This document shows positions 620 to 16,526 of a DNA stretch of 52,533 nucleotides, piece by piece. Every line of letters begins with the position of its first letter. The first letter of the stretch is position 1. The translations under genes and the position numbers were made by a program. A model generated the notes under the pieces. That model did not search any database, was not told where the DNA came from, and was given only the letters and a program-made list of their open reading frames with translations. The stretch comes from Desulfatirhabdium butyrativorans DSM 18734 (GTDB taxonomy: Bacteria > Desulfobacterota > Desulfobacteria > Desulfobacterales > Desulfatirhabdiaceae): contig NZ_AUCU01000019.1 in the NCBI RefSeq assembly GCF_000429925.1, positions 1 to 52,533 of the forward strand, read 5' to 3'.

Positions 620-979
620 GTCAGGGCTTACAAACAGGATGACCCACACTGGTGTCTCAAACAGGCCGAAAGGATCGGCCCCCATTGCCTCGAGGTCGTT
701 CGGCGACTCCTTGAAGATTCAATCGTCGATCGCCTTCGGGCAGCGCAGTGTGTGGTCGGGCTTGAAGCAAGGGTCGGCGCCAGCCGACTGGAAGCCGCCT
801 GTACCAGGGCGCTTCATTTCAATACAACGGCATACCGGATGATCAAGAGCATTCTCAGGCAGGGACTCGATAGCAAACGGATCGACGAGCAACCCCATGT
901 GATCGAGTTTCCGTCAGCCTACCGCGGAGCAGGCCGGTTTCTTCGCCATCCGCTTCATCAGCAAGGAGGCAAGCCATGA
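620..979 (+). pseudogene. istA: IS21-family transposase IstA, C-terminal remnant
   Basis: After an in-frame TAG at 617-619 the frame runs to the TGA at 977-979. It gives an IstA-type tail: HWCLKQAERIG, a helix with VDRLRAAQCVVGLEARVG and SRLEAACTRAL, then YRMIKSILRQGLD. The catalytic DDE core and the DNA-binding N-terminus are missing. The sequence between 496 and 619 is not convincingly IstA in any single frame. The remnant ends with the classical IS21 arrangement, in which its stop codon overlaps the ATG of istB (ATGA at 976-979). It is certainly non-functional here. Confidence 0.75.
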
Positions 980-1506
980 ATCCGATGCCCGATTTAGCTC
1001 CGATGCTAAAGCAACTTCGGCTCTCCGGTATCCTGGACAGCCTGAATACCAGAAACCGACAAGCCATCGAGGGAAAACTCACCCACATGGAGTTTCTTTC
1101 CCTCATCATCACAGACGAAATCGCCCGCCGGAACCAGAAGAAGCTCGAAGCGGCATTCCGAAGGGCCAACTTCCGCAACCAGAAGACGATCGAAGAGTTC
1201 GACTTCTCGTTTAACCCGCTCATCAACCGCTCGCTGATCATGGAGCTTTGCTCCTGCAGGTTCATGACGGAGAGGGTCAGTGTTTTCATCATCGGTCCAT
1301 GCGGAACCGGCAAAAGCCACCTGGCTCAGGCTCTGGGGCATTGCGCCATCCGAAACGGATTCAACGTGCTCTTTACGACGGCATCGAAACTGCTCGCACA
1401 ATTGAGCGCATCCCAGGAACCTTCTTTGCAAGTGACAAGCAAGATAGTCCACCGAAATTGTGATAGCAGGCAATTAAGGGCTTCTCATTCCAGAAGACCA
1501 TTATGA
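976..1506 (+). pseudogene. istB: IS21-family helper ATPase IstB, truncated
   Basis: The ATG at 976 overlaps the istA stop and is preceded by AAGGAGG. About 147 residues match IstB: LKQLRLSGILDSL near the N-terminus, FDFSFNPLINR, and a Walker-A-like GPCGTGKSHLAQALGH at residues ~111-126. After the LLAQLSAS region (about nucleotide 1416) the similarity stops, and about 29 unrelated residues lead to the TGA. Intact IstB proteins are about 250 residues long. This copy therefore lacks the Walker B region and the rest of the AAA+ core. The break lies about 200 bases before the giant glycosyltransferase gene, so the mobile debris ends close to that gene's start. Confidence 0.8.
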
Positions 1507-1619: not shown

Positions 1620-4600
1620 ATGGATGCGAATTCTATCTATACAAGAAATATTATGGCAGATGTAATTGCCAAATATGGATTTGAAATTGGCGAATTTACT
1701 TATGGCAAACCGGTTATTCGTTGGTGGGGTGAGAAAGTAAAGCTGAAGATTGGACGCTATTGCTCAATTGCAGACAATGTAAAAATATATCTAGGTGGCA
1801 ACCATCGGTATGATTGGGTAACAACCTATCCCTTCCCTTCGCCGCCGATGAATCAAGACTGGCCTAACGCCAATCATCGAGGCTTGCCGATCTTGCCTTC
1901 CACCAATGGAGATGTAGTGATAGGTAACGATGTTTGGCTTGGAGACGACAGTACGATCATGTCTGGTTTGACCATCGGTGATGGTGCTGTGGTTGCCGCT
2001 AGGGCAGTTGTGACTAAGGATGTTCCACCCTATGCAATTGTGGGAGGTAACCCGGCGCGTTTGATTCGAAAGCGGTTTTCAGATGAGTTCATTGCTATGC
2101 TTCTTGAACTGAAGTGGTGGAATTGGCATACAGACAAAATAAATGAATATATGCCATATTTATGTTCAGGGGATGTAATGGAACTATACACACGTGTAAA
2201 AAGTGCGATGTCCGCGGGTCTTGAATTTTCAGCCGGGACCGACCGTGGCAACTCGTTTACCGGTGAAAGGGCCATGCCTTTGGCACCCAATATGGATCCG
2301 CAGATTATGCAGGAGCATTGGGCTAGATATCGTCATGTGTCTCCAATGGTTGCTGACAAGCGCGTGTTGGATGTGGCTTGCGGGACTGGATACGGGTCAG
2401 ATTTGCTGGCCGAAACTGCCAGACATGTGATAGGTGGCGATATTTCACCAGAAGCGATAGCATACTGCCGGGATAACTACCGGCGTGATAATCTGAAGTT
2501 CGAAGTTTTGGATATCAGAAACATTCCCTATCCTGATAAATCGTTTGAAATGGTGATCAGTTTTGAAACGTTGGAACATATCACCGAGGGAGAGATGTTT
2601 TTGATGGAGGTGACACGGTTACTGACTGATGATGGCATATTCGTTGTATCTACACCTCTGGGGGGACCAGTCGGCAACCCGTATCATGTTGCTTATTATC
2701 AAAAGGGCACATTTGCATCCTATCTACTTGGTTTTTTTGAGGATGTTAAACTCTTGTTTCAACGTGATGATCAATTTAGCGAGGAAACTAAATCTCCATA
2801 TTATGCGCCAACTTTTACCGGGGAATATGCTCTTGCGTTTTGCAGAAAACCCAGGCAGCGCATACAAGGGCTTATCTCGATCATCATCCTCACCCACAAT
2901 CAGCTTGAACACACCAAACTTTGCCTGCAAAGTATCATAGAGTACACGCCCCAACCCTACGAACTGATTCTCGTGGATAATGGTTCAACTGACGGGACAA
3001 TTGCCTATTTTCGCAAATTTATGAATTCTCATAATAACGTGCGAGTGATTGCCAATAAAGAGAATTTGGGTTTTGCTGCCGGCAACAATCAAGGACTCGC
3101 CTTTGCCAACGGTACTTACGTGCTGCTGCTTAACAATGATACTGTGGTGACCGAAGGCTGGCTTGCTCGTATGTTATCAGTATTTGAACGGTATTTAGAA
3201 GTAGGTATCGTCGGGCCAGTGTCTAATTATGTTACAGGACCACAACAAGTCGATAGGGCTTCCTACCAAAGCCTTGAAGAAATGCATCACTTTGCCAAAC
3301 AATGGTCTGCTGAACATGTGGGACAAACAATGGAGGTACGAAGGCTTGTGGGATTCTGCTTACTGTGCAAACGTGAAGTTATTGACCGAATCGGCGGATT
3401 GGACGAACAATTTGGTATTGGTAATTTTGAAGATGACGATTTTTGTGTACGAGCTGCAGCAGCCGGTTACAAAGCCCGAATTGCGATAGATGCTTTCATT
3501 CATCATACAGGAAGTCAAACATTCAGAGGTGCAGGGATTGATTGTCAGCAAACAGGGGAGCGTAATTGGGAATTATTCAAGAAAAAATGGAAGTTACCAC
3601 AAAATTTACCCTTTAGCGTTAACTATACCCTTGATCTCGATACAAGAGATTTATCGCAATATTATATTCCGGTAAAAGCGCGAGCTGGCATACCTCAGTT
3701 AAAAGAAATCCCTACTCTGACTCATTCCGCATTCAAAGAGAAAATGACATCGATCATCATACCGGTGCGGTCGGTTCATCTAAATGAATGCGTCTCATTC
3801 ATAAATAAACATACGAATCAACCGCATGAAATTATATTCCTTGAACATGACGCAGCACCCAAATTGAAAAAACAGATCACCAAAGCCATAAAATGGAATA
3901 ACAATTATAAATGTATCAAGATCGACAAGAAGCTTGATTTTGCCCACTCTCTTAACGAAGGCATTAATAAATCCATAGGTGAATATATTGTAATCTTGTT
4001 TGATGACGTTTTCGTTTCCGAGGAATGGCTTTCAGATATGCTTGAATGCCTTCAAAGCGATAAGAATATAGGCATTGTCGGTGTGATGTCCGATGAGGCA
4101 TCGAGTCAGCAAAAAGTGGAGGACATTGATTTAAGAACACTGGAAAGTCGATTATCTTTCAGGAAAATAAATCGGAATAAAAGGATAACTATTAGAATTC
4201 CTGATGGTTTTTGCATGCTCTTCAGACGCGATATGCTGGTTCGAATCGGACTATTTGATGAGATTTTTGGTGGAAACAAACATATGTTTGACGATCTTTG
4301 CGTAAGAGCGGTGCTTGAGGGGTATACTAACGTCATTGCACGGAATGTATTCGTACAAAACAAGGGGGGCATCAACAGGCTGTTGTCCCAAGAAACAACT
4401 TTATTTGATGAAAAATGGAGGAACTTGGATAAGCCAACTCCTCTGGCGGAAAAAGCATTGATTGAAAAACAAATAAATGCCATTTATAAATATTTTAAGG
4501 GGCTACATTTCCACAGTCCGACCATAAACCTTCTTTTTACACAATCGGTAGATCCCCGCATTCTGCGTGATCTGTCCGATCTTCCACGACTAAAAATGTA

Positions 4601-6545
4601 CATTTTGCACAAAGGTTCACAGATTCCTGCTGAAAGCATTGCGCTGTTTTATAATACGGATGTTGTAGACAGACTCCAGAACATAACCGAACCGAACATC
4701 CGAAATGTTCAGGGTGTTTGGGATGCCGTCGTGCTGACTGGCGCGGATATGGCGCCGGAAACGATGGAAGCATTTCTGACGATGACCAACTTCAAGCTGC
4801 TGATAATTGCGGATGGTCTTTCGGCTCAAAACACGGAGCAGCGCACCCAAGCCATCGATTTTCTGAGTCAAACCGGATTTGAGGCAATCTGCGATAAGCC
4901 GCTTGCCTATCGCTGGAACCAAAAGAGTATTTGCGGCGAATATTTCTTTGCCAAAAACAGGTTGGCCGATGCCATTCGGTTGTTTGAATGGGCGCTTCTC
5001 GACAACCCCGCCGATGAAGACGCCCTGAACAATCTGGGGGTGGTCTCCTTCAATTTGCAGCGATATTCGGCTGCGGAGAATTTCTTTTTTAAGGCGGCTT
5101 CCTTCAATCGACGGAATGCGACAACCCTCGATAACCTGATTCAGCTCTACCTGTCCACAAACCGGTTGGAAGACGCGGCAGATCTGCTGCGGGAACGGGT
5201 TCTGCTGGAACCGAACCGGGGCGATCTTCTGTCCTTGCTGGCGGCATGCCTGCATCAACTTGGCCAAACGGCAGGCGCAATTGACGCTTATCGAAAGGCA
5301 AGAGAACTGGGGGCTGAACCCGATGCGGCTTTGGAAGCCGCCATTTCGGACGCCGAACGTGTTGATGCTTTACAAACTGCACCATCAACCCAACGCAATC
5401 ATCACCGAATCTTGGTCATCAACAACCTGTATCCTCCCCAGGAACTGGGAGGCTACGGCCGGCTGCTCTTCGATTTCACCAATATCCTGCGCAGTCGGGG
5501 GCATTCCATCCAGGTGTTGACGTCCGACACGCCCTATTTGGGAGGAACAGATGGCGATGCGCAGGATGTGGACAGAAGCCTCGTTCTGTTTGGCGGGTGG
5601 CAGGGAGGGGTATGCAAACAAATCGAAGACAAGGGAGAAATCGTCCGAATCATTCGTCAGAACATCGAAAGACTGAATCAGGTTCTCCGGGAGTTCCAGC
5701 CCGATGTCTGCCTGTTGGGAAATATCGATTTTCTATCCAAAAATATCATCGATCCCATTTTGGCGAAAAACATACCGATTGTGCATCATCTCGGAAACCA
5801 AGCTCCCGGCTATGCAGTTTCTGATACCCCAAAAAATAAGCTCTATCATTTGGCGACAGCCAGCAATTGGCTTCGGAATGTCGTAAAGCGCTCCGGGTAC
5901 CCACTAAAGGATATCAGCGTCGTGTATCCCGGTGCTCTCGTGGAAGAGTTCCGGATGCGCATTCCGCCAGCCTATGACAAGCTGCGAATTGCCTATGCCA
6001 GTATCGTTCTTCCTTACAAAGGACCCCATATACTGATCAATGCCCTGAAGAAACTGAACGATCTGGGCATCGATTTTTCCTGCTCAATTGCAGGCACATC
6101 AACGGATGAGAACTTTGTCGAACAACTTAAAAATTTTGTGGCCGCTCATGGAATGGATGATAAGATCCATTTTCTGGGCTTTCTTTCCAGAGAGGAATTG
6201 AAAAATCTCTTTGCTTGTCATAACGTTCTGGTCTTTCCATCGATCGTTAAAGAAGCTTTTGGAATCAGCCAAGTCGAGGCGATGGCTGCCGGACTTGCTG
6301 TCGTGACATCCGGCACCGGCGGAGCGAAGGAAATCGTCGAGCATGGGGTGAACGGCATCATTTTCCAGTCCGAAAACGATGAGTCCCTTGCAAGCGAATT
6401 GATCGGTCTGGCAAAAGATACGAAGCGATGGCAATCGATTGCCCAGGCGGGTCAGAAAAGGGCACTGGAAACATTCGATATCGAACGATCAGTTGATGCC
6501 CTTGAAGAATGTTTTGAAGGGCTGTTGAAAAGCAGGCGAAGGTGA
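1620..6545 (+). CDS. Giant multimodular protein: acetyltransferase, methyltransferase, two GT2-like modules, TPR, GT4 glycosyltransferase
   Basis: This is a 1641-residue protein. Modules in order: residues ~1-200, left-handed beta-helix O-acetyltransferase (CatB/Vat type, with GGNHRYDW and IGDGAVVAARAVV repeats); ~215-400, class I SAM methyltransferase (VLDVACGTGYG at ~249, SFETLEHI); ~420-690, GT2 glycosyltransferase (ISIIILTHNQ, VDNGSTDGT, LLLNNDT, FEDDDFCVRA); ~710-960, a second, weaker GT2-like module (LFDDVF, MFDDLCVRA); ~970-1100, unrecognised; ~1102-1240, TPR repeats (LNNLGVVSFNLQRYSAAENFFFKA); ~1262-1641, GT4 glycosyltransferase (NNLYPPQELGGYGRLL, EAFGISQVEAMAAG). It probably builds and decorates a surface glycan or glycosylates proteins in the cytoplasm. 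No acceptor can be named. The start has no clear ribosome site and lies right after IS21 debris, so the N-terminus may not be original. DNA at about 3600-4500 is visibly more AT-rich than the rest. Confidence 0.85.
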   Translation: MDANSIYTRNIMADVIAKYGFEIGEFTYGKPVIRWWGEKVKLKIGRYCSIADNVKIYLGGNHRYDWVTTYPFPSPPMNQDWPNANHRGLPILPSTNGDVVIGNDVWLGDDSTIMSGLTIGDGAVVAARAVVTKDVPPYAIVGGNPARLIRKRFSDEFIAMLLELKWWNWHTDKINEYMPYLCSGDVMELYTRVKSAMSAGLEFSAGTDRGNSFTGERAMPLAPNMDPQIMQEHWARYRHVSPMVADKRVLDVACGTGYGSDLLAETARHVIGGDISPEAIAYCRDNYRRDNLKFEVLDIRNIPYPDKSFEMVISFETLEHITEGEMFLMEVTRLLTDDGIFVVSTPLGGPVGNPYHVAYYQKGTFASYLLGFFEDVKLLFQRDDQFSEETKSPYYAPTFTGEYALAFCRKPRQRIQGLISIIILTHNQLEHTKLCLQSIIEYTPQPYELILVDNGSTDGTIAYFRKFMNSHNNVRVIANKENLGFAAGNNQGLAFANGTYVLLLNNDTVVTEGWLARMLSVFERYLEVGIVGPVSNYVTGPQQVDRASYQSLEEMHHFAKQWSAEHVGQTMEVRRLVGFCLLCKREVIDRIGGLDEQFGIGNFEDDDFCVRAAAAGYKARIAIDAFIHHTGSQTFRGAGIDCQQTGERNWELFKKKWKLPQNLPFSVNYTLDLDTRDLSQYYIPVKARAGIPQLKEIPTLTHSAFKEKMTSIIIPVRSVHLNECVSFINKHTNQPHEIIFLEHDAAPKLKKQITKAIKWNNNYKCIKIDKKLDFAHSLNEGINKSIGEYIVILFDDVFVSEEWLSDMLECLQSDKNIGIVGVMSDEASSQQKVEDIDLRTLESRLSFRKINRNKRITIRIPDGFCMLFRRDMLVRIGLFDEIFGGNKHMFDDLCVRAVLEGYTNVIARNVFVQNKGGINRLLSQETTLFDEKWRNLDKPTPLAEKALIEKQINAIYKYFKGLHFHSPTINLLFTQSVDPRILRDLSDLPRLKMYILHKGSQIPAESIALFYNTDVVDRLQNITEPNIRNVQGVWDAVVLTGADMAPETMEAFLTMTNFKLLIIADGLSAQNTEQRTQAIDFLSQTGFEAICDKPLAYRWNQKSICGEYFFAKNRLADAIRLFEWALLDNPADEDALNNLGVVSFNLQRYSAAENFFFKAASFNRRNATTLDNLIQLYLSTNRLEDAADLLRERVLLEPNRGDLLSLLAACLHQLGQTAGAIDAYRKARELGAEPDAALEAAISDAERVDALQTAPSTQRNHHRILVINNLYPPQELGGYGRLLFDFTNILRSRGHSIQVLTSDTPYLGGTDGDAQDVDRSLVLFGGWQGGVCKQIEDKGEIVRIIRQNIERLNQVLREFQPDVCLLGNIDFLSKNIIDPILAKNIPIVHHLGNQAPGYAVSDTPKNKLYHLATASNWLRNVVKRSGYPLKDISVVYPGALVEEFRMRIPPAYDKLRIAYASIVLPYKGPHILINALKKLNDLGIDFSCSIAGTSTDENFVEQLKNFVAAHGMDDKIHFLGFLSREELKNLFACHNVLVFPSIVKEAFGISQVEAMAAGLAVVTSGTGGAKEIVEHGVNGIIFQSENDESLASELIGLAKDTKRWQSIAQAGQKRALETFDIERSVDALEECFEGLLKSRRR

Positions 6546-13874: not shown

Positions 13875-16526
13875 ATGTCTATCGATCAGACGGTTCTTCA
13901 TGAACAGCACGTTGCCCTCGGCGCACAGATGGTTGACTTCGGCGGCTGGTCGATGCCGATTCAATACAAAACGGGAATCGTTGTCGAACATCTGAATACC
14001 CGGAAACATGCCGGGGTGTTCGATGTATCCCACATGGGCAGAATCTGGATTTCTGGAACCCAGACTCTCGCGTTTCTGCAGCATGTGCTGAGCAACAATG
14101 CGGCAGCCCTCGACCCGGGCGAGAGCCAGTATACCATGATTCCGGATGAGTCGGGCGGTGCCATCGATGATGCCTATCTCTACCGGTTTACGGAGGATGA
14201 ATACGTTCTGGTGGTCAATGCATCCAACCGGATCAAGGATTTGACTCATTTCGAAAAGATGCGATCGGGTTTTCCTGATGTGACGATCCAGGACCGGACC
14301 CATGAAACCGCCATGCTCAGTCTGCAGGGGCCGGGTTCGAAAATGATTCTCGAAGAGATCATCGAAGAAGGCAGGCTGCCGGAACCCATCAAAAACCGCA
14401 CCAGCATGATGCGGATGAACGGCCGGACCATTCGGGTTTCCCGAACCGGATATACGGGCGAGCCGCTGGGATTTGAACTGATCGTTGAAAACGATATGGC
14501 CCCGCTGCTCTGGGAGAAGATGCTGAAGCGAAAGGCCTGTCCGGTAGGGCTCGGCGCACGGGACACCCTCCGGCTCGAGGCTGCACTGCCGTTGTATGGT
14601 CATGAACTGGGCGCTGACCCGGAAGGCAAGCCCATTCCCGTTTTTGCATGCCCGCTGGCAAAATTTGCCGTGAGCCTGTCTCCACTCAAGGGGGATTTTG
14701 TCGGCCGTAAGGCCCTGGAGCGGCAGTTCGATGATTTCAAGCGGATTCAACAGAAAAATGCCGGTTCCTTTGCGCACCTGCCGATGATGATCCGGCCCAT
14801 CGCCCTGATCGGGAAGGGGGTGTTGCGCGCCGGCTGCCGTGTCTATCATCAGGGAGACCCCGTCGGCTGGATCACCAGCGGAACGATGGTGCCTTATTGG
14901 AAAACGGAAGGCTCCGGCCTCGAGCTGCGCATCACCTCCGAAAAAGAGATGCGCTCCATCGGGCTGGCCCTGGTCGGGAGTCACATTCCGGACCGGGAGC
15001 GTCTCGATGTGGATATCCGGGGAAAGCATACGGAGGCGATCCTCGTGCCCTATCATCTCAGAAGCGAGGCGCCGCCTTACGCCAGGCCTGTGCGATGGGA
15101 TCAGCTTCCGGCAAACGAGCCGAACTGTCCAGACCAGGCGGCCGTCCATGCCGCCAAAGGCTTGTTGCTGCGCGCCATCGAAAACACGCGGTGGCGCCGT
15201 GAGGATTGCATCAACCTGATTCCTTCCGAACAAACCCCCTCGGCTGCCGTCCGCATGATGTCTATTCTCGATCCCTCGGGCAGGTATGCCGAGCACAAAA
15301 AGGTCAAGGCTTTCGGTGATGCGGAAGTGTTTTATTATCAGGGCGTCGATTTCATTGCGGAAATCGAGCGGGCGCTTCAGTGCGAATTGCGCACATACCT
15401 GGGCTGCAGGCAGGTGGAGCCCAGGCCTGTTTCCGGCCAGATGGCCAATGCCGCCTTTTTCAGTGCGATGATGGACTGGCGGAATCTTGCAGATCGCAAA
15501 TCGGAACAGCGCAGGCTTCGCTCGGTCATGAATCACCACATCATCAAGGGCGGGCATCTGAGCGCTCAGCCCATGGGGGCGCTGCGGGATTTCATCGCCA
15601 GAGACCCCAGGGCCGAGCGGCCGGCTGTGGTGAATTTTCCCGTCTGCTCCGAGGATCCTTTCCGTATCGATACCGAAGCCCTGCCCCCGCTTCTGGAGCG
15701 GTACAGACCGGAGCTCATCATCCTGGGCAAAAGCATGGTCCTGTATCGGGAGCCTGTCCGGGAAATCCGGAGCATGATCGATGCATTGAACCTGGACTGT
15801 GTTTTGATGTATGATGCGGCCCACGTGCTGGGGTTGCTCGGGCCATTTTTTCAGGAGCCGTTTGCCGAGGGGGTGGATGTGCTGACAGGCTCGACCCACA
15901 AGACGTACTTCGGCACCCAGCGAGGCCTGATCGCTGCAGACATGGCCCAGGAGCACCCCCGGTTTGCCCTGTGGGAAGCCATCGAGCGCCGGGCCTTTCC
16001 GGGATCGGTGAGCAACCACCATCTGGGTACGCTTCTGGGGCTCATGATGGCTGCCATTGAAATGAACGCCTTCAAAGACGCCTATCAGGAGCAGGTGATC
16101 CTGAACGCAAAAGCTTTCGCGAGGGCACTGAACGATTGCGGCATAGAGGTGATGGGCGATCCGGCTCTGGGATTTACCGAGACCCACCAGGTCATCGTCC
16201 ATGTCGGCTATGGACGGGGGCCCGACATTGCCAGGCGTCTCGAGGGAAATCAGATCATCGTCAATTATCAGGCTGGACCCGAGGAAGAAGGATTCAGCGC
16301 CGCCGGATATTTGCGCATGGGAGTTGCGGAAATGACCCGCTTCGGCATGAAGGAGGCCGATTTCGGAGAAGTGGCGGAAATGCTCCATGAGGTGATCGTG
16401 ATGAATCGAGGCGTCAAGGATCGGGTGAAGGTTTTTCGGAAGCGCTTTCAGGAAATGCACTATTGTATGGGGCCGGAGGCGCTCGGTGGGTCTTTCGATG
16501 AACTGCACCGGATGGTCGGGGTGTAA
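13875..16526 (+). CDS. Fused aminomethyltransferase (GcvT) - serine hydroxymethyltransferase (GlyA)-like protein
   Basis: This is an 883-residue protein with a strong ribosome site (AGGAGGAGG, 8 bases before ATG). Residues 1 to ~395 are GcvT-like: HVALGAQMVDFGGWSMPIQY, GVFDVSHMG, the GGAIDDAYLYRF region that holds the folate-site Asp, and SRTGYTGEPLGFEL. From ~405 the protein is SHMT-like and divergent: INLIPSEQTPSAAV, VEPRPVSGQMAN, HHIIKGGHLS, DAAHVLGLL and GSTHKTYFGTQRG, with K676 as the probable PLP lysine. GcvT releases the methylene group of aminomethyl-H-protein as CH2-THF. SHMT uses CH2-THF plus glycine to make serine. Joining them suggests transfer of CH2-THF between the two sites (inference). 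No gcvH or gcvP is in the window. A lipoprotein gene follows 2 bases later. Confidence 0.88.
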   Translation: MSIDQTVLHEQHVALGAQMVDFGGWSMPIQYKTGIVVEHLNTRKHAGVFDVSHMGRIWISGTQTLAFLQHVLSNNAAALDPGESQYTMIPDESGGAIDDAYLYRFTEDEYVLVVNASNRIKDLTHFEKMRSGFPDVTIQDRTHETAMLSLQGPGSKMILEEIIEEGRLPEPIKNRTSMMRMNGRTIRVSRTGYTGEPLGFELIVENDMAPLLWEKMLKRKACPVGLGARDTLRLEAALPLYGHELGADPEGKPIPVFACPLAKFAVSLSPLKGDFVGRKALERQFDDFKRIQQKNAGSFAHLPMMIRPIALIGKGVLRAGCRVYHQGDPVGWITSGTMVPYWKTEGSGLELRITSEKEMRSIGLALVGSHIPDRERLDVDIRGKHTEAILVPYHLRSEAPPYARPVRWDQLPANEPNCPDQAAVHAAKGLLLRAIENTRWRREDCINLIPSEQTPSAAVRMMSILDPSGRYAEHKKVKAFGDAEVFYYQGVDFIAEIERALQCELRTYLGCRQVEPRPVSGQMANAAFFSAMMDWRNLADRKSEQRRLRSVMNHHIIKGGHLSAQPMGALRDFIARDPRAERPAVVNFPVCSEDPFRIDTEALPPLLERYRPELIILGKSMVLYREPVREIRSMIDALNLDCVLMYDAAHVLGLLGPFFQEPFAEGVDVLTGSTHKTYFGTQRGLIAADMAQEHPRFALWEAIERRAFPGSVSNHHLGTLLGLMMAAIEMNAFKDAYQEQVILNAKAFARALNDCGIEVMGDPALGFTETHQVIVHVGYGRGPDIARRLEGNQIIVNYQAGPEEEGFSAAGYLRMGVAEMTRFGMKEADFGEVAEMLHEVIVMNRGVKDRVKVFRKRFQEMHYCMGPEALGGSFDELHRMVGV

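Follow-up and report, generated by a model that had tools for sequence, protein, structure and literature searches.

The gene at positions 1620-6545 of the window raises the question of whether an acetyltransferase, a methyltransferase and several glycosyltransferases are truly joined in one polypeptide and, if so, how such a chain arose and what it might do. By window we mean the whole stretch of DNA analysed, the first 52,533 bases of contig NZ_AUCU01000019.1 (116,105 bases) of Desulfatirhabdium butyrativorans DSM 18734. The preliminary description of this DNA, made from the letters alone, had counted six modules in one chain, and Pfam and PDB sequence searches place all six in order. The gene encodes seven modules in a single frame, the seventh recognized by its predicted fold:

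1620..6545, + strand: whole gene, 1641 aa, in the module order acetyltransferase, methyltransferase, GT2, degenerate-looking GT2, predicted pseudo-methyltransferase, TPR, GT4
1620..2219, + strand: hexapeptide acetyltransferase of the xenobiotic (CatB/Vat) type, residues 1-200, matched by Hexapep and by CatB/Vat chains
2253..2855, + strand: class I SAM methyltransferase, residues 212-412, with motif I VLDVACGTGYG (2364-2396)
2862..3695, + strand: GT2 glycosyltransferase, residues 415-692, with VDNGSTDGT, LNNDT, EDDD and HH stretches
3699..4478, + strand: second GT2-fold module, apparently partly degenerate, residues 694-953, with LEHDAAP, LFDD, MFDD and VQNKGG
4479..4931, + strand: predicted pseudo-methyltransferase without SAM motif I, residues 954-1104, by predicted fold
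4932..5339, + strand: TPR repeats, residues about 1105-1240
5403..6530, + strand: GT4 glycosyltransferase, residues about 1262-1637, with GGYG (5448-5468) and E-x7-E in KEAFGISQVE (6249-6278)
976..1506, + strand: truncated istB (IS21) fragment outside the enzyme and just upstream of it, covering IstB_IS21 profile positions 3-140 of 238

The frame begins with ATG and runs through 1641 codons with zero internal stops. It is not a chance frame, since the alternative frames carry many stops over residues 1-412, the part for which they were counted (17 and 12 over residues 1-200; 8 and 19 over residues 201-412).

The motifs expected of their classes are present in four modules, the acetyltransferase, methyltransferase, first GT2 and GT4, with the roles generally known for these motifs and for the glycosyltransferase motif sets. 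Pfam places Methyltransf_11 at residues 250-343 (3.9e-21), Glycos_transf_2 at residues 420-587 (1.9e-43), TPR_16 from residue 1107 (3.9e-9) and Glycos_transf_1 at residues 1452-1614 (1.2e-34). The last of these domains and E-x7-E, a GT4 motif, together give the C-terminal module the features of its class, and the first GT2 shares 46-49% identity with GT2 modules in L034, L036, L037 and L038. The chain thus holds two glycosyltransferase modules with their motifs, the GT2 of residues 415-692 and the GT4, and a second GT2 without them. This second module matches Glyco_tranf_2_5 in two stretches (best at residues 762-906, 1.7e-15) and, from its sequence, looks degenerate: aligned with the first GT2 and other modules, it lacks several of the usual motif residues, LEH replaces VDN and QN replaces HH, while LFDD still carries the Asp of LNND, and MFDD two residues of EDDD. 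It is 65% identical to the corresponding module of a relative (G003) with dN/dS of 0.20 (NG86) or 0.31 (YN00), and on these values it is kept by selection at the protein level.

The N-terminal module has the features of the xenobiotic acetyltransferases, namely hexapeptide repeats (Hexapep at residues 98-133, 4e-10) and a conserved histidine, His62 in GGNHRYDW (1794-1817), which is identical in all five aligned rows and which we take to be catalytic. Four free-standing homologues align with it over the full length, and CatB/Vat chains in the PDB match within residues 8-195 (best E 4.1e-46). The best NCBIfam rows are CatB (163.2 of 350 bits) and Vat (162.6 of 300 bits), both below the cut-offs of the named resistance enzymes. 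We rejected a role in antibiotic resistance, and do not call the module a resistance gene, because of these low scores and its setting in a glycan enzyme.

Residues ~970-1100 had been described as unassigned. The region proved to be a separate and conserved domain with bounds at 954-1104, for which structure prediction gives a class I Rossmann fold. An alignment of five relatives was used for models of 306 and 160 residues. With the domain alone, the best model reached a mean pLDDT of 79.0 and a pTM of 0.80 (the other four, 47.1-59.5); in the longer construct, which includes the TPRs, three of five models scored 82-85 with the TPRs counted in, and the best showed the same strand order. An initial fold search with the TPR-containing model displayed TPR matches. 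The domain alone gave methyltransferase folds, and the idea of a new fold was dropped: SAM methyltransferases lead the Foldseek matches (best E 5.6e-5; nearly all of the best 50 rows, with TM-scores by query length of 0.41-0.66), and VIA-align leads with the methyltransferase COMT 5p8w_C (Z 11.6, rmsd 3.2, 147 residues aligned), and almost every one of its best 50 rows (Z 11.6 to 10.2) is a methyltransferase fold or resembles one. These rows include modifying regions from PKSs and from human FASN, the latter of which carries a pseudo-methyltransferase. The glycine-rich motif I (GxG, in the region of the first strand) is absent in all five aligned rows, for which reason we use the name pseudo-methyltransferase, and the domain is accordingly predicted to be a class I SAM methyltransferase fold without the glycine motif. 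Sequence supports neither a methyltransferase nor a GT2, as profile comparison gives probabilities of 1.5% against the true methyltransferase modules and 0.1% against GT2. The dN/dS of the domain is 0.17-0.23, the lowest of these values lying near saturation.

This domain is rare. A single-sequence search matched 24 of 389 genomes of the order, with the domain covered in five (G000, G001, G002, G003 and G046), and a profile of the domain alone matched 2 of 297 genomes of the phylum, both already known holders. A profile of the whole block including the TPRs was discarded for distribution, since TPRs match widely (262/389 genomes). In G046, a 424-aa TPR protein (L058 1009-2283, on G046:C49) carries the same predicted domain, apparently with no glycosyltransferase, and a TPR frame comes after it.

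How unusual is the chain as a whole? The preliminary description held that multimodular proteins of glycosyltransferase, methyltransferase and TPR parts exist in bacteria of this kind, and this holds true. With at most three candidates scored per genome, 22 of 144 genomes (own included) have a match inside a frame of at least 1000 codons, and all eight of these frames that were scanned are multi-glycosyltransferase chains with TPRs, some with added methyltransferase, radical SAM, WbsX or GT9 parts; the kind is therefore common in this order. In the TPR-dominated search, frames extend up to 8395 codons, a length reached by one open frame with TPR matches at about 6115803-6118721 of G120:C1.

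The leading acetyltransferase had been called unusual, and the comparison agrees. Matches to this module occur in 22 of 389 genomes of the order (E <= 1e-25) and 45 of 375 genomes of the phylum (E <= 1e-20), own genome included in both. In the 65 other genomes the 66 matches lie in frames of 138 to 533 codons, and only the frame in the window is longer. The layout with a fused leading acetyltransferase is absent from these 65 genomes of the order and phylum samples because their frames are too short for it, with at most eight candidates scored per genome, so that weaker fused copies may be missed. The two longest of the other frames were considered as fusions and set aside. One (G218, 530 aa) has its hexapeptide domain C-terminal, after 300 residues that resemble a glycosyltransferase by eye only and have no Pfam, NCBIfam or PDB match; the other (G402) was read as an acetyltransferase frame whose upstream extension, overlapping a transporter-like frame, is spurious. 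Modular methyltransferase-glycosyltransferase chains are known; the fusion of an acetyltransferase to the front of one is unmatched among the other sampled genomes. Literature searches, by narrow word queries that could miss published cases, returned no fusion of acetyltransferase, methyltransferase and glycosyltransferase among the matches listed.

Neighbours of the free-standing acetyltransferase were scanned in three genomes. In G075 four bases of its frame overlap a methyltransferase frame, and a GT4 comes next; in G049 it comes after a Kdo-kinase-like gene and is itself followed by a methyltransferase (partial match) and then a GT4; and in G015 a GT2 gene stands before it. Because the free-standing form adjoins methyltransferase or glycosyltransferase genes in all three, the fusion resembles a condensed operon. 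The preliminary description had reckoned that relatives with the acetyltransferase and the rest in separate genes would speak against the fusion. Such separation is found in part, with the acetyltransferase standing alone and the C-terminal block placed behind other front ends; the fusion is therefore local, not an artefact.

The C-terminal block (residues 954-1640; pseudo-methyltransferase, TPR, GT4) is present in 3 of 7 genomes of the family, at identities of 69% (G001), 59% (G003) and 47% (G002). The front ends before it differ: G001 has a GT2; G003 combines a GT2 with the shared second GT2 and with a PF13524 glycosyltransferase (CgeB-like); and G002 pairs a GT2 with a PF13524 glycosyltransferase and carries an extra GT4-type part at its end. 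The acetyltransferase module is absent from all three (E <= 1e-25). At the DNA level, similarity to G001 begins abruptly at 4479; similarity to G003 spans 3700-4468, and the C-terminal block is next detected only from 5416. On these protein and DNA borders, the protein is apparently a mosaic built by module shuffling. The four modules of residues 1-953 have a mean GC3 of 0.39-0.43, against 0.50-0.59 for the C-terminal block and 0.65-0.71 for four genes nearby; in sliding windows the rise falls near residue 1000, ~50 residues inside the block and not at 953/954, and GC3 also varies within modules and dips inside the block.

Fourfold-site identity to G003 is higher in the second GT2 (30/57) than in the C-terminal block (54/179; Fisher p = 0.0026), chance agreement being about 0.25 and the figures coming from one genome pair and few sites. 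For this reason the sharing of the second GT2 seems to be more recent than that of the block behind it. The GT4 alone differs from the second GT2 as well (40/122, p = 0.014), and the pseudo-methyltransferase alone shows no clear difference (9/26). In most pairs the dN/dS of the GT4 and TPR parts is not computable, synonymous sites being saturated. The module borders, at about 691/694 and 953/954, provide a natural case that could guide the design of chimeric glycan enzymes.

The gene starts 1.6 kb from the contig end. Positions 1-340 of the window have complete or partial copies of 100% identity at many sites in the genome, contig ends among them, and are probably an insertion-sequence end where the assembly breaks; the upstream neighbours of the gene are therefore not readable. 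At 363-532 lies an imperfect palindromic repeat with inverted arms, MITE- or REP-like, with at least 22 diverged genome copies (75-93%) plus one 23-base match among the 40 of 143 candidates scored; one copy occurs in G001 (L031 15328-15452).

On the downstream side, inspected as far as about 16.5 kb (two genes by scan, the rest by eye), neither glycan genes nor Wzm/Wzt exporter genes were seen; the upstream side is lost at the contig end. At 13875-16526 (+) an 883-aa frame joins GCV_T (glycine-cleavage T protein) to a serine hydroxymethyltransferase domain. Elsewhere in the genome there are Wzt- and Wzy-type genes, with three Wzt_C matches over the cut-off on other contigs, as well as three Flagellin_N matches; because of these genes, lipid-linked and protein-linked acceptors are both possible. 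On G000:C6 (about 105525-111533), a TPR match falls in a 696-codon frame just before two Flagellin_N frames, a possible flagellin glycosyltransferase. Ten neighbours were scanned around the three relatives: those of G003 encode an aminotransferase, WbqC and a sulfotransferase, those of G002 a GDP-mannose dehydratase, GT41 and a sugar methyltransferase, and in G001, which has the closest relative, the flanking genes are nuclease/ATPase-like and not sugar genes (two scanned).

Taken together, we consider it fairly probable that the gene encodes a cytoplasmic, module-shuffled glycan-assembly enzyme that extends a glycan and methylates and acetylates it. The GT2 and GT4 modules would elongate a surface glycan or a protein-linked one by adding sugars, and the N-terminal methyltransferase and the acetyltransferase would modify the new sugars by O-methylation and acetylation, perhaps to form a cap. 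The two degenerate-looking modules and the TPRs might serve as spacer, docking or acceptor-binding parts. The suggestion that the protein could make, modify and extend a glycan without a separate operon went too far, given that two modules look degenerate, and the Wzt- and Wzy-type genes elsewhere in the genome weaken it further; the best 25 of 35 Pfam families matched by the chain include neither a sugar-nucleotide domain nor an export domain. Acetyltransferases of the CatB/Vat hexapeptide type work as trimers, and for this reason the full-length fused protein is probably trimeric as well. A bolder proposal, which we regard as rather unlikely, is that the acetyltransferase clamps three chains into a factory of roughly 550 kDa, in which the pseudo-glycosyltransferase and pseudo-methyltransferase dock and cassettes swap at fixed borders; if true, glycan structure would evolve by cassette swaps between species, as in modular natural-product synthases. 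Should the chain act as one unit, a single protein could suffice to test in what order and at what spacing a glycan is extended, methylated and acetylated.

Other explanations of the locus differ in what they make of the same modules. The chain could be a protein O-glycosyltransferase, whose TPRs bind flagellin or pilin in the cytoplasm, with the GT4 adding the first sugar, the GT2 extending it, and the methyltransferase and acetyltransferase decorating the product. The direct joining of TPR to GT4, the three Flagellin_N matches, the TPR frame before two Flagellin_N frames on contig C6 and the precedent of FlmG, a modular cytoplasmic flagellin glycosyltransferase of a simpler kind, would all fit. 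However, no flagellin or pilin gene adjoins the gene within the stretch inspected, and two of the three relatives lie near sugar-biosynthesis genes, so we hold this explanation to be possible yet doubtful. We find it improbable that the protein is a recent, poorly functioning mosaic, in which foreign modules became attached to an old C-terminal block in an insertion-prone, A+T-rich region. Such an origin would account for the degenerate-looking second GT2 and the pseudo-methyltransferase, the A+T-rich front part, the istB remnant and repeats upstream, and the restriction of the fusion to one genome of the order and phylum samples; against it stand 1641 codons without a stop, the presence of the motifs in four modules, and the dN/dS of the second GT2 (0.20-0.31) and of the pseudo-methyltransferase (0.17-0.23), values that reflect a history shared with G003 and G001 and are uninformative on the acetyltransferase.

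An assembly or sequencing error joining two adjacent genes is very improbable. In its favour, the acetyltransferase is encoded separately in the three genomes with scanned neighbours, in G075 with a four-base overlap with a methyltransferase frame; over residues 190-225, however, the frame of the gene is open while the alternative frames have 1 and 2 stops, and GC3 shows no clear compositional step at the join. A frameshift there had been named as something that would undermine the fusion, and no sign of one was found in the frame, alignment and composition of the assembled sequence.

The preferred reading, a multi-module glycan-assembly enzyme, has counterparts among known systems. The acetyltransferase module resembles CatB/Vat enzymes in aligning within residues 8-195, including the region of the conserved histidine, but differs from them in scoring at about half the resistance-enzyme cut-off (163 vs 350 bits) and in being part of a glycan enzyme. 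The relatives in G001, G003 and G002 share the pseudo-methyltransferase, TPR and GT4 parts; their front ends differ and hold no acetyltransferase (E <= 1e-25). To our knowledge, FlmG of Caulobacter has neither a methyltransferase nor an acetyltransferase; it is described as modular and cytoplasmic, with a domain at its N-terminus that binds flagellin.

The enzyme may best be read, by analogy, as working like WsaE or ORF6 of the Klebsiella pneumoniae O7 system. WsaE, of the S-layer glycan of Geobacillus stearothermophilus, is described as a soluble chain in which an N-terminal methyltransferase and two glycosyltransferase domains extend and cap the glycan (PMC2943079), and it shares with the enzyme of the window the combination of a methyltransferase and glycosyltransferases in one chain. 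Unlike that enzyme, WsaE is described as having three active domains, among which no acetyltransferase or TPR is named (PMC2943079), and wsaE lies in a wzm/wzt cluster (PMC2943079); beside the gene of the window no wzm/wzt genes were seen downstream to about 16.5 kb, the upstream side being lost. O7 ORF6 combines an N-terminal methyltransferase terminator and two C-terminal GT2 modules in one polypeptide (PMC11231755), and a WbdD fragment is reported as a trimer (PMC3482155). O7 ORF6 and WbdA/WbdD use a kinase and a coiled-coil ruler, whereas the enzyme of the window has TPRs and a predicted pseudo-methyltransferase mid-chain, contains a GT4 and is led by an acetyltransferase. To the known methyltransferase-glycosyltransferase chains it thus adds a leading acetyltransferase module and a linker of predicted pseudo-methyltransferase and TPRs.
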